Shown here one piece after another: positions 56,466-60,192 of a stretch of 64,000 nucleotides of DNA. A program made the translations under genes and the position numbers. Positions within the stretch are counted from its first letter, which is position 1, and every line of letters begins with the position of its first letter. A model generated the notes under the pieces. That model searched no databases. It was not told the DNA's origin and saw nothing but the letters and a program-made list of their open reading frames with translations. Source of the DNA: Primorskyibacter flagellatus (GTDB taxonomy: Bacteria; Pseudomonadota; Alphaproteobacteria; Rhodobacterales; Rhodobacteraceae); contig NZ_FWYD01000001.1 in NCBI RefSeq assembly GCF_900176485.1, positions 1-64,000 of the forward strand, in the 5' to 3' direction.

Positions 56466-57026
56466 CTACAGGCCTCGCGACAGGGCAGCGACGCCCGTAC
56501 GTGCAATTTCCTGTAGACCCAAGGGGCGCATGAGATCCGCGAAAGCATCGATCTTGTCGGGCGCGCCTGTCAGCTGAAACACAAAGCTTTCCAACGTGCT
56601 GTCGACGACATGCGCACGGAAGATGTCTGCAAGGCGGAGCGCCTCGACGCGCTTTTCGCCACTGCCTTCGACCTTGAGAAGCGCCAATTCCCGTTCGACA
56701 AACGGTCCTTCGACGGTGAGGTCATGCACCTTGTGCACCGGAACGATCCGGCCAAGCTGTGCCTTGATCTGTTCAATTACCTGAGGCGTGCCAGTGGTTA
56801 CGATGGTGATCCGGCTGAGATGGCCGGTATGGTCCACCTCTGCCACGGTCAGGCTTTCGATGTTATAACCTCGTCCCGAGAACAAGCCGATGACGCGGGC
56901 CAGCACGCCCGCTTCGTTGTCGACCAGAATGGCGAGCGTATGTTTTTCGGTAACATCCGAAAAGTTGGGACGCAGGTTATAGGCCGAATGCTTGTTCGAA
57001 CCCTTCTTGATATGTAGCGCGGACAT
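56466..57026 (-). CDS. ilvN: Acetolactate synthase small (regulatory) subunit
   Basis: A 186-aa regulatory subunit giving valine feedback control of acetohydroxyacid synthase. The N-terminal ACT domain is TLAILVDNEAGVLARVIGLFSGRGYNIESLTV; the C-terminal domain includes ELALLKVEG and FVFQLTGAPDKIDAF. ATG 57026 has AAGGAAG 5 bases upstream; an earlier start at 57074 has no support. It lies 88 bases downstream of ilvB and shares its attenuator-controlled transcript. Confidence 0.96.
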   Translation of the reverse strand: MSALHIKKGSNKHSAYNLRPNFSDVTEKHTLAILVDNEAGVLARVIGLFSGRGYNIESLTVAEVDHTGHLSRITIVTTGTPQVIEQIKAQLGRIVPVHKVHDLTVEGPFVERELALLKVEGSGEKRVEALRLADIFRAHVVDSTLESFVFQLTGAPDKIDAFADLMRPLGLQEIARTGVAALSRGL

Positions 57027-57114
57027 ATGAACTTCCTTTCCGGCGGGGGCCGCTTCCAAGGCTTTTTGCAACAAGCCCTGGAATGGTTTTCCTGAAAACT
57101 AAAGCGGTGCTGGA

Positions 57115-58869
57115 TCAGACCAGCACGGCACCCTTGGTTCCGATGGCGTCCTTGAGTGAGACCTCACCCAGAAGCATCTTGTTATGCGGCTCGCCTGACG
57201 GGATCATCGGGAAGCAATTTTCGTGCTTCTCGACAAGGCAGTCAAAGATGACCGGGCCATCGTGGTCCAGCATTTCCATGATCGCGTCGTCCAGATCAGC
57301 CGGGTCCTTGCAGATGATGCCTTTCGCGCCAAACGCTTCGGCGAGCTTCACGAAATCGGGCAGGGCTTCCGACCAGCTTTGCGAATAGCGTTCGCCATGC
57401 AGCAACTCCTGCCACTGACGCACCATGCCAAGGCGTTCATTGTTGAGGATGAACTGCTTGACCGGCAAGCGGTATTGCACCGCAGTACCCATCTCTTGCA
57501 TGTTCATCAGCCACGAAGCCTCGCCCGCGACATTGATCACAAGCGCGTCCGGATGCGCGATCTGCACACCGATGGAGGCGGGAAAGCCGTAGCCCATCGT
57601 GCCCAGCCCGCCGGAGGTCATCCAACGATTTGGGTCCTCGAAATTGAGATACTGCGCAGCCCACATCTGGTGCTGGCCAACTTCGGTGCAGATATAGCGG
57701 TCACGATCCTTGGTCAGTGCCTCCAGCCGGGAAAGGGCGTATTGCGGCTTGATGGTCTTTTCGTCCGAGGCGAACTTGAGGCAGTTGACCTCTTTCCACG
57801 TCTCGATCTGACGCCACCATTTGGCCACGCCTTCCGAATTGACCTTGCGGCCACGGGCTTTCCAGACCTTCAGCACATCCTCAAGAACATGGCCGATATC
57901 GCCGACAATCGGCATGTCGACATGGATGACCTTGTTGATCGAGGATGGGTCGATGTCGATATGCGCCTTGCGCGATTTCGGGCTGAACGCGTCGAGCCTG
58001 CCGGTGATGCGGTCGTCAAACCGCGCGCCGACATTGATCATCAGGTCGCAGCCATGCATCGCGAGGTTTGCCTCGTAGAGCCCGTGCATGCCCAGCATCC
58101 CCAACCATCCCTTGCCGGAGGCAGGATAGGCACCCAGCCCCATCAGGGTGGAGGTGATCGGAAAGCCGGTCGCGTCCACCAACTCCCGCAAAAGCTGGCT
58201 GGCACCGGGACCGGAATTGATGACCCCGCCGCCGGTATAGAAAACCGGACGTTGGGCCGTTTCCAGCGCCGCAACCAGTTCCGTGATCGTTTCCATGTCG
58301 CCTTTGACTTGCGGCTGATAGTGGCCAACGGGCGTCTTGGAGGGCGAGACATAGGCCGCGCTGGCAAATTGTACATCCTTGGGGATGTCGACCAGAACCG
58401 GGCCGGGGCGGCCGGATGTCGCGACGTGAAACGCCTCGTGGATCTTTGCCGAAAGATCGGCGGTATCCTTCACCAGCCAGTTATGCTTGGTGCAGGGGCG
58501 GGTGATGCCAACGGTGTCGGCCTCCTGAAAGGCGTCTGAGCCGATCATGAAGGTGGGCACCTGGCCCGTCAGAACGATGATCGGGATCGAATCCATCAGC
58601 GCATCTGTCAGCCCGGTGACCGCGTTCGTGGCGCCGGGGCCGGACGTCACAAGAACAACACCGGGCTTGCCGGTGGACCGGGCATAGCCTTCGGCCGCAT
58701 GCACCGCACCTTGTTCGTGGCGCACCAAGATATGACGAATGGCATTTTGTTGGAACACCTCGTCGTAAATCGGTAGCACGGCGCCACCGGGATATCCGAA
58801 TACTGTATCCACACCCTGGTCGATCAGGGCCTGAACCACCATTTTCGCTCCGGTCATCTCACGTGTCAT
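57115..58869 (-). CDS. ilvB: Acetolactate synthase large (catalytic) subunit
   Basis: A 584-aa ThDP/FAD enzyme condensing pyruvate to acetolactate, or with 2-ketobutyrate, the first step of branched-chain amino acid synthesis. ThDP catalytic Glu is in VRHEQGAVHAAEGYARSTGKPG, with the FAD region in the middle (VGARFDDRITG) and ThDP/Mg binding in GEASWLMNMQEMGTAV and NNERLGMVRQWQ. Full length. A leader peptide and intrinsic terminator lie upstream at 58917-59019. Confidence 0.97.
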   Translation of the reverse strand: MTREMTGAKMVVQALIDQGVDTVFGYPGGAVLPIYDEVFQQNAIRHILVRHEQGAVHAAEGYARSTGKPGVVLVTSGPGATNAVTGLTDALMDSIPIIVLTGQVPTFMIGSDAFQEADTVGITRPCTKHNWLVKDTADLSAKIHEAFHVATSGRPGPVLVDIPKDVQFASAAYVSPSKTPVGHYQPQVKGDMETITELVAALETAQRPVFYTGGGVINSGPGASQLLRELVDATGFPITSTLMGLGAYPASGKGWLGMLGMHGLYEANLAMHGCDLMINVGARFDDRITGRLDAFSPKSRKAHIDIDPSSINKVIHVDMPIVGDIGHVLEDVLKVWKARGRKVNSEGVAKWWRQIETWKEVNCLKFASDEKTIKPQYALSRLEALTKDRDRYICTEVGQHQMWAAQYLNFEDPNRWMTSGGLGTMGYGFPASIGVQIAHPDALVINVAGEASWLMNMQEMGTAVQYRLPVKQFILNNERLGMVRQWQELLHGERYSQSWSEALPDFVKLAEAFGAKGIICKDPADLDDAIMEMLDHDGPVIFDCLVEKHENCFPMIPSGEPHNKMLLGEVSLKDAIGTKGAVLV

Positions 58870-58916
58870 TGCCTTGCTCCGTTTTGCAACGAGATCACTT
58901 CGTTTTCTTTACGCAC

Positions 58917-58946
58917 AAAAAAAGCCCCCGAGGGTCAACCGGGGGC
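58917..58946 (-). terminator. Attenuator terminator upstream of ilvB
   Basis: Read on the minus strand, GCCCCCG and CGGGGGC form a 7-bp GC stem with a 9-base loop, followed by seven T residues: a textbook intrinsic terminator. It lies between the leader peptide and ilvB, 47 bases before the ilvB start. The competing pairing is at 58944-58953 with 58979-58988. Confidence 0.88.
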
Positions 58947-58988
58947 GCATGGGGAACCAACAAGGTTGCCGTTACCGGCCCATGCGCC
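58944..58988 (-). promoter_or_regulatory. Antiterminator pairing of the ilvB attenuator
   Basis: On the minus strand GGCGCATGGG (58988-58979), inside the last codons of the leader, is perfectly complementary to CCCATGCGCC (58953-58944), which overlaps the 5' arm of the terminator. A ribosome stalled on the Leu/Val/Ile codons leaves the first segment free to form this helix and prevents termination; a ribosome at the leader stop masks it. Confidence 0.8.
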
Positions 58989-59019
58989 TTTCATCTAGAA
59001 TTACGACTAGCGATTCCAT
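58972..59019 (-). CDS. ilvBN leader peptide
   Basis: A 15-codon ORF encoding MESLVVILDERRMGR. Five consecutive branched-chain codons (Leu-Val-Val-Ile-Leu) sit at positions 4-8, the hallmark of an attenuation leader. AAGGG lies 8 bases before its ATG, and its stop lies just upstream of the attenuator. It is too short for routine gene finding. Expected to sense charged Leu/Val/Ile tRNA and set ilvBN expression. Confidence 0.85.
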   Translation of the reverse strand: MESLVVILDERRMGR

Positions 59020-59049
59020 CCTTGGGGCCCTTTTTTCCACGTGCGGAAC

Positions 59050-59078
59050 CTTATGCATTTGCAGCAAAGGGACGTCAA
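59050..59078 (-). promoter_or_regulatory. Candidate ilvBN promoter
   Basis: On the minus strand TTGACG (-35, 59078-59073), a 17-base spacer and CATAAG (-10, 59055-59050) precede the leader peptide. A start near 59043 would give a 5' end about 24 bases before the leader ATG. Sigma-70-type match by eye; -10 is 4 of 6. Confidence 0.6.
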
Positions 59079-59211: not shown

Positions 59212-60192
59212 ATGGACAGAGGCCACGACGCGCAAACCCCTACGCAAATCCCATTGCGGGGCTGGTGGGACATTCTCAAGCGCGTCTACAATGGCATGCT
59301 GGAAGACAATCTGGGGCTAATCGCCGCCGGATGTGCTTTTTATGGATTGCTTGCATTATTTCCCGCGATCACGGCGATCATGGCGATTGCCGGGCTGGTG
59401 TCGCAGCCGGATATTGTCGTCGAGCAGTTAAGCGCCATTACCGAGGGTCTGCCGGAAAATGCGGCCAGTATCATGATCGATCAGGCCGCCGAGGTTGCGG
59501 GGGCAAGCTCGTCAGGGCTGACATTTGCTGCATGGATCGGTTTCGCGCTTGCTGTCTATTCCGCGTCACTCGCGGTTCAGGCGCTGATGCAGGGTCTGAA
59601 CGTCGCTTTCGGAGAGGCTGAGAAGCGGTCAATCGTGCGGATATATTTCATGCGTGTCGTGCTGACACTGGGCCTTATTTTCGGATTTCTGATGGCGGTG
59701 GCGGCGGTCGTCGCGTTGCCGGTGGCGCTCAGCTATCTTGCGGTTGGGCCGGTCACGGACTGGCTGGCGCAGGTGTTGCGCTGGCCCTTGCTGCTGGTCG
59801 CCGCGGGGCTTGGCATTGCGCTTCTGTTCCGTTGGGGGCCAAGCCGGACCCCGGCGCGGTGGCGCTGGATCACGCCGGGGGTCCTGCTCAGCTGCGTGTT
59901 GTGGGTCGCGGGCACTTTGGCGTTTTCCTACTACGCGCGCAACTTTGCCGGTTATAATGAAACTTTCGGGGCATTGTCGGGCGTCATTGTCCTGTTGATG
60001 TGGATGTGGGTTTCGGCCTTCATCATCCTTCTTGGTGCCGAACTGGACGCCGAGACCGAGGCGCAGACCGCGCAGGACACAACGGTGGGTCCGACTCGTC
60101 GGCTGGGACGTCGTGGCGCAAGGGCGGCAAATCGGGTGGGCGGTGTCGCTGTTGATAATGAGCCGCCGCCGGAACATATCGGGCAGGTGTGA
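59212..60192 (+). CDS. YihY/BrkB family membrane protein
   Basis: A 326-aa integral membrane protein with about six helices. Family features are NLGLIAAGCAFYGLLALFPAITAIMAIAGL near residues 33-62 and the C-terminal NETFGALSGVIVLLMWMWVSAFIILLGAELDAE. Early annotation as RNase BN was withdrawn for this family; function is unknown. The C-terminus is a charged tail rich in Arg/Gly. It is divergent from the ilvBN leader. Confidence 0.9.
   Translation: MDRGHDAQTPTQIPLRGWWDILKRVYNGMLEDNLGLIAAGCAFYGLLALFPAITAIMAIAGLVSQPDIVVEQLSAITEGLPENAASIMIDQAAEVAGASSSGLTFAAWIGFALAVYSASLAVQALMQGLNVAFGEAEKRSIVRIYFMRVVLTLGLIFGFLMAVAAVVALPVALSYLAVGPVTDWLAQVLRWPLLLVAAGLGIALLFRWGPSRTPARWRWITPGVLLSCVLWVAGTLAFSYYARNFAGYNETFGALSGVIVLLMWMWVSAFIILLGAELDAETEAQTAQDTTVGPTRRLGRRGARAANRVGGVAVDNEPPPEHIGQV

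Follow-up and report, generated by a model that had tools for sequence, protein, structure and literature searches.

Leader-peptide attenuators before acetolactate synthase operons have been described in several bacteria. Passages of PMC4117421, citing Tarleton, Malakooti and Ely 1994, report that the ilvBN operon of Caulobacter crescentus is attenuated by tandem Ile and Val codons. Attenuators before ilvIH in alphaproteobacteria are credited to Vitreschak et al. 2004 in passages of PMC2573895 and PMC6123439, and the ilvIH element of Sinorhizobium is catalogued as cis-regulatory, with Vitreschak et al. given as the source. The Escherichia coli ilvB, ilvG, and leu leaders also use ribosome-mediated attenuation by branched-chain codons, and their peptides have 28-32 residues (passages of PMC6123439). 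Our literature search for an ilvB attenuator in Rhodobacter, in which subscription journals were mostly uncovered, found no paper. Vitreschak et al. 2004 are said to have predicted a leader-peptide attenuator before the single acetolactate synthase operon.

Here we analyse an attenuator before ilvBN in Primorskyibacter flagellatus, using a 64,000-nt stretch of its genome (the window). Compared by description, it resembles the Caulobacter system in operon, taxonomic class, Ile/Val-codon leader, and rho-independent terminator, and the alphaproteobacterial ilvIH attenuators (known here from parts of the citing papers) in being a leader-peptide attenuator before an acetolactate synthase operon. 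It is likened on the same basis to the Escherichia coli leaders, whereas its own leader has only 15 residues. Of the class features of branched-chain leader-peptide attenuators, it has an ORF with I/L/V codons, an intrinsic terminator, and, judged by position, an antiterminator 5' arm that a ribosome at the stop codon would cover. Given the Caulobacter ilvBN and Sinorhizobium ilvIH precedents, the window attenuator belongs to an already known kind of switch: ilvBN attenuation is known from the Caulobacter report, and the window element would add another well-supported case.

Parts of the attenuator

A preliminary description of this DNA had placed a complete attenuator before ilvBN, and that observation is confirmed. 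All the parts it claimed are present on the minus strand, in the order described, between the YihY-family gene and ilvB (Table 1). The 15-codon leader reads as stated, with five consecutive Leu/Val/Ile codons (CTA GTC GTA ATT CTA, codons 4-8), the 10-base antiterminator pairing is indeed perfect, and the 7-bp terminator ends in the seven T residues claimed. The parts had also been said to overlap, which needs qualifying: between the two helices the overlap is no more than 3 nt (58946-58944). Because the YihY-family neighbour is divergent, the terminator serves no upstream gene. The ilvN/ilvH frame is listed from an upstream TTG, and its family match starts at residue 43.

Table 1. Positions of the attenuator parts and neighbouring genes in the window, with the loci of other genomes that match RF02502 above its cut-off
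Feature	Position	Strand	Detail
Promoter-like element	59050..59078	-	TTGACG 59078-59073, N17, CATAAG 59055-59050
Leader ORF MESLVVILDERRMGR	58972..59019	-	15 codons + TAA; ATG at 59019, TAA ends 58972
Antiterminator 5' arm GGCGCATGGG	58979..58988	-	overlaps leader codons 11-14
Antiterminator 3' arm CCCATGCGCC	58944..58953	-	perfect complement of GGCGCATGGG
Intrinsic terminator stem-loop GCCCCCGG-TTGACCC-TCGGGGGC	58924..58946	-	7 bp, 8 with a G-U
Terminator T7 tract	58917..58923	-	from sequence and terminator scan
ilvB, acetolactate synthase large subunit (regulated gene)	57115..58869	-	NCBIfam PRK09107, 1126.8 bits, over cut-off
ilvN/ilvH, acetolactate synthase small subunit	56466..57074	-	NCBIfam PRK11895, 226.9 bits, over cut-off
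YihY-family gene, divergent, upstream of ilvB	59212-60192	+	NCBIfam scan
RF02502 above-cut-off loci			L191, L199, L204, L206 (=L234), L208-L210, L213, L216, L217, L223, L224, L230-L233

The promoter-like element described with these parts, TTGACG-N17-CATAAG, is correct in letters and spacing, but the role of CATAAG as the -10 element is uncertain. TTGAC lies upstream in 29/29 ilvB loci examined, this one included (a thirtieth, L012, is N-masked there), and in 22 of the 29 a TA...T hexamer follows at N17, usually TAATGT, the last bases of CATAATGT. The window has no TA...T at N17; the counterpart of the relatives' hexamer is TAAGGT at N19, two bases downstream of CATAAG. The -10 register or spacing is therefore uncertain, and TAAGGT may be the -10 instead. 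A consensus promoter scan of the region did not have the TTGACG/CATAAG site among its listed sites.

When folded, the 129-nt leader region is more stable than 199 of 200 shuffles (z -3.26). The antiterminator region alone gives -26.3 kcal/mol, inner hairpins included, and the terminator alone -14.8 kcal/mol. In the untranslated fold, the leader 5' end AAAAAAGGGCCCCAAGG (59036-59020, minus strand) can pair with the terminator 3' arm and U tract (58931-58917, minus strand), and this pairing also adds to the low folding energy of the region. No classical pause hairpin was apparent in the leader folds, which were viewed rather than searched systematically.

Conservation among ilvB loci

An IlvB search of 60 genomes matched 51, from which 30 loci were taken automatically, the window's own included; the leader start was picked by eye for six (L013, L023-L025, L029, and L030). 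The preliminary description counted lost Leu/Val/Ile codons or lost alternative helices in relatives as grounds for rejection, and its reading passes this test. Runs of at least four consecutive I/L/V codons occur in 25/30 leaders, own included, and are shorter in L023, L024, L025, L029, and L030, with none longer than one in L025. Both antiterminator arms are found in 25/30 loci as well, their letters being absent from L016, L025, L028, L029, and L030, and a permissive scan without shuffles found a terminator-like hairpin in all 30. L025 (1376-1477, plus strand) keeps its terminator behind a leader, MSGRIAIMGRGRRTGM, with two isolated Ile codons only.

The geometry is also kept: leaders are 15 codons long in 21 of 27 loci, and in 19 of 30 loci the stop codon and the terminator are exactly 25 nt apart. 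The word GCGCATGGG is present in 25/30 loci and invariant across the 25 aligned. We set aside 'RMGR' as a conserved peptide signal, its letters doubling as the antiterminator arm. Six further ilvB loci of the same family comprise four with a run of at least four I/L/V codons and a terminator (L137-L140) and two without (L135 and L136). Genome G025 carries ilvB twice, and both copies (L006 and L140) are preceded by an attenuator of their own.

To compare the two helices, we used an alignment of the 25 loci that have both antiterminator arms (A1). In the terminator, 96.5% of cells are paired and 11 carry double changes, a number reached in 0/500 shuffles, with four pairs changed on both sides. 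In the antiterminator, 94.4% of cells are paired and none carries a double change, because the helix hardly varies: seven of its ten pairs never do, and the outermost pair is formed in 12/25 rows. The terminator thus covaries, and the antiterminator is conserved rather than covarying.

Codon use was counted in 27 leaders (the 30 less L028-L030) against 41 non-overlapping window ORFs of at least 200 codons, picked mechanically. GTA makes up 38 of the 66 leader Val codons, compared to 5.6% in the background, and CTA 10 of the 38 Leu codons, compared to 2.9%. CTG, at 49.3% of background Leu codons, accounts for only 6/38. The ilvB leaders therefore show a rare-codon bias, GTA and CTA being over-used; binomial values for it are indicative only, since the background is one genome's window and the leaders come from many genomes.

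Distribution

A covariance model built from A1 (R1) matched 171 of the 198 genomes of the family, each from another genus, at E values up to 0.01. The own genome gave one strong match, and its further matches were all weak, with E values of 0.18 and above. Across the class, R1 matched 29/289 genomes: eight at 2e-13 or better, four of them from the own family, and 21 at 1e-6 or worse. Four weak matches (L075, L077, L111, and L112) look like plain terminators and were rejected as attenuators.

In 13 genomes from other alphaproteobacterial families, we found no comparable leader-terminator pair ahead of ilvB. Two cases there are partial: an ORF of L128 contains a run of four (MTTQLVLIRQPLSGRD) but lacks a terminator, and L134 has an ORF that starts with TTG and contains a run of five, with an A/T-rich hairpin far downstream of it. 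Another genome from outside the family (G386, locus L225) has a leader, MSLLIVPCAPNEGLA, and a terminator before a gene that reads by eye like ilvB. A separate word, AAATCTTTTC, recurs upstream of ilvB in five of the 13 other-family genomes, about 146-219 nt before the gene (L122, L123, L126, L127, and L130), and AAATCTTTTCATTTATT recurs in four. AAATCTTTTC is possibly another regulatory site.

Relatives before a Bcr/CflA-type transporter

The strongest R1 matches outside the family (L070-L073, 61-73 bits) lie directly before an MFS transporter, not ilvB, as do the weaker L074 and L076 and, inside the family, L109. Of these seven transporter proteins, six score above the TIGR00710 cut-off (Bcr/CflA efflux, 200.9 bits), which L076 narrowly misses at 195.3; six of the seven are 47-68% identical to the first. 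A protein search found 257 transporter relatives, of which the best 80 were retained, all with record titles (L144-L223). Those titles are mostly of alphaproteobacteria, along with some Paraburkholderia, Burkholderia, and metagenome-assembled genomes labelled Gammaproteobacteria or just bacterium.

We built a second covariance model (R2) from the seven transporter elements, with no ilvB sequence. It matched 45 of these 80 loci (best 80 of 257) at E values up to 0.1, with 38 at 2.3e-5 or better. Three of the 80 (L144, L162, and L194) are the same elements as the R2 builders L070, L073, and L074. Of the seven weaker matches, the six other than L167 were scanned with the Rfam family RF02502, and all six are also above its cut-off. 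RF02502 adds five more loci (L191, L199, L206, L209, and L213), bringing the element to 50/80 (best 80 of 257). The remaining 30 of the best 80 match neither model within the sequence covered, which for L212 was 153 bases upstream.

In the 45 R2 loci, leaders start 91-172 nt before the transporter protein match, and Val is their commonest residue, at 130. With the initiator excluded, I/L/V runs of at least three occur in 35/45 leaders and of at least two in 42/45. Markov versions treated with the same choice rule gave runs of at least three in 1.2/45 on average, five in the highest of 50 sets; these loci were chosen by R2, which itself favours I/L/V-type letters.

In the transporter alignment (A5, 38 rows), 10 cells of the antiterminator carry double changes, a number reached in 2/500 shuffles, yet two of its middle pairs are unpaired in 18 and 15 of the 38 rows. 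The A5 terminator is paired in 94.1% of cells and has no covariation beyond shuffles (two double-change cells, reached in 150/500).

Scanned against the window, R2 finds the ilvB attenuator as its only match (80.7 bits, E 2.9e-19), although its seven members had been picked up with R1, so that the two models are not independent. The shared letters CGGTAACGG, CATGCGCC, and CGGGGGC argue for common descent of the ilvB and transporter elements. The own genome's relative of the MFS transporter (46% identity) has no comparable leader upstream.

RF02502 (Atu_C8)

At gathering scores, Rfam has no match in the whole window. In a permissive search, window positions 58909-59020 (minus strand) matched RF02502 over its full length with 32.8 bits and an E value of 7.3e-5. 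This score is below the gathering score of 50 bits that decides membership, so the window element is not an RF02502 member but appears to be related. Like the window element, RF02502 (Atu_C8, a Rhizobiales sRNA) has a consensus that encodes a leader, MIILVVGPRMGRAV, as well as a GCGCAUGGG/CCCAUGCGC pairing and a terminator; the lower-case letters of the printed consensus are less conserved. It differs in being labelled an sRNA, not an attenuator, and in that the above-cut-off matches found here precede an MFS transporter, not ilvB.

These matches were found in 11 of the 47 transporter loci scanned (out of the best 80 of 257) and in 6/36 genomes of another family, which are the same 36 genomes as the order-level sample of G305. 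L234 being the same locus as L206, they amount to 16 distinct elements, all before an MFS transporter. For 11 of the 16 that position follows from the construction of the search. For the other five, the downstream frame reads by eye like the same transporter, which TIGR00710 confirms for L224. An unbiased sample shows less: RF02502 was above cut-off in 1/289 class genomes (G305) and in 0/14 control genomes. The leader in its consensus and the positions of these matches suggest that Atu_C8 may be an attenuator RNA of the same family.

We searched the literature for leaders before MFS or Bcr/CflA transporters, and for Atu_C8 or an Agrobacterium small RNA with a leader peptide and valine. Neither search had anything relevant among the matches listed, with subscription journals mostly uncovered. 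The relation of the ilvB attenuator to the transporter elements and RF02502 looks new.

We consider it probable that a single alphaproteobacterial attenuator family has been exchanged between ilvBN and the Bcr/CflA-type MFS transporter, with the transporter leader tuned to valine (VVVG runs). The "multidrug efflux pump" would then probably either transport a branched-chain amino acid (or an analogue), with valine shortage turning it on, or be a pump whose inducer is ribosome stalling. Atu_C8 would be the RNA that such an attenuator yields on termination, and not, or not only, an sRNA acting in trans.

Mechanism and alternatives

We put the probability that ribosome-mediated transcription attenuation controls ilvBN at roughly 0.93. 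The preliminary description read the element as the classical form of this mechanism, and the codons, spacing, arms, terminator covariation, codon bias, and spread through the family support it. We infer the switch itself, in which stalling chooses between helices, along with promoter use, leader translation, and ribosome footprints.

In the proposed sequence of events, RNA polymerase would start just upstream of the leader ORF. If Leu-, Val-, or Ile-tRNA ran short, the ribosome would stall within codons 4-8. A stall at codons 4-6 would work best, leaving GGCGCATGGG wholly free to pair with CCCATGCGCC as that emerges. The antiterminator would thereby claim the basal GCC of the terminator stem, letting the polymerase read on into ilvBN. 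With plentiful amino acids, the ribosome would reach the stop codon and cover GGCGCATGGG, the terminator would form, and transcription would end at T7. The 5' arm is placed where a ribosome at the stop (codon 16) would cover it. Assuming a footprint whose edge lies 15 nt past the first base of the A-site codon, a stall at codons 4-6 leaves the whole arm exposed, one at 7-8 hides part of it, and a ribosome at the stop covers it. The two helices share 3 nt, and predicted folds hold a shortened antiterminator beside the full terminator, so they could exclude each other only through the order of synthesis and three G-C pairs. We infer that the switch depends on that order and on these pairs, at the terminator base beside the U tract.

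Coexistence of the helices is what would be expected of a leader that does not switch, in which ilvBN is held at a fixed low level, either by the translating of the leader ORF or by a terminator that acts constitutively. The arm-free minimum-energy fold combines a shortened antiterminator with the full terminator, and the RNAalifold consensus likewise draws both together. Such a leader is nevertheless very unlikely, as the conserved I/L/V run, the rare-codon bias, the 25-nt spacing, and the antiterminator arms would all be purposeless in it. Still further down the scale is the idea that a terminator and an ORF with hydrophobic codons came together by chance. Terminator-like sites on their own arise often, averaging 0.8 per shuffled 601-base region, but the combination does not: a strong terminator within 70 nt after an 8-21 codon ORF with at least four consecutive I/L/V codons, thresholds chosen with the element already in view, is present once in the window, exactly at the ilvB leader, and in 0/40 first-order Markov sequences of window length. 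Retention of the element across genera makes coincidence next to inconceivable.

A more serious competitor, though still improbable, is that the terminated leader RNA is itself the product, a stand-alone sRNA acting in trans, with or without a role for the peptide like that of peTrpL. Passages of PMC10117765 and PMC7298713 describe a trans role for Sinorhizobium rnTrpL/peTrpL, and both the full-length, sub-threshold RF02502 match and the near invariance of GCGCATGGG would suit such a product. The invariant letters are, however, those that pair with CCCATGCGC, and L016, which is without them, has a different peptide tail too. The regulatory codons are moreover conserved, and the element keeps its place immediately ahead of the gene. 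A second role may exist alongside attenuation.

Significance

The ilvBN attenuator of Primorskyibacter flagellatus is a well-supported, almost family-wide case of a known mechanism, with an unusually rigid geometry. The wider attenuator family to which it probably belongs would give the Rfam 'sRNA' Atu_C8 a function that can be tested. The transporter, known from this analysis simply as a Bcr/CflA efflux protein, would likewise gain a testable inducer, namely valine shortage or ribosome stalling.
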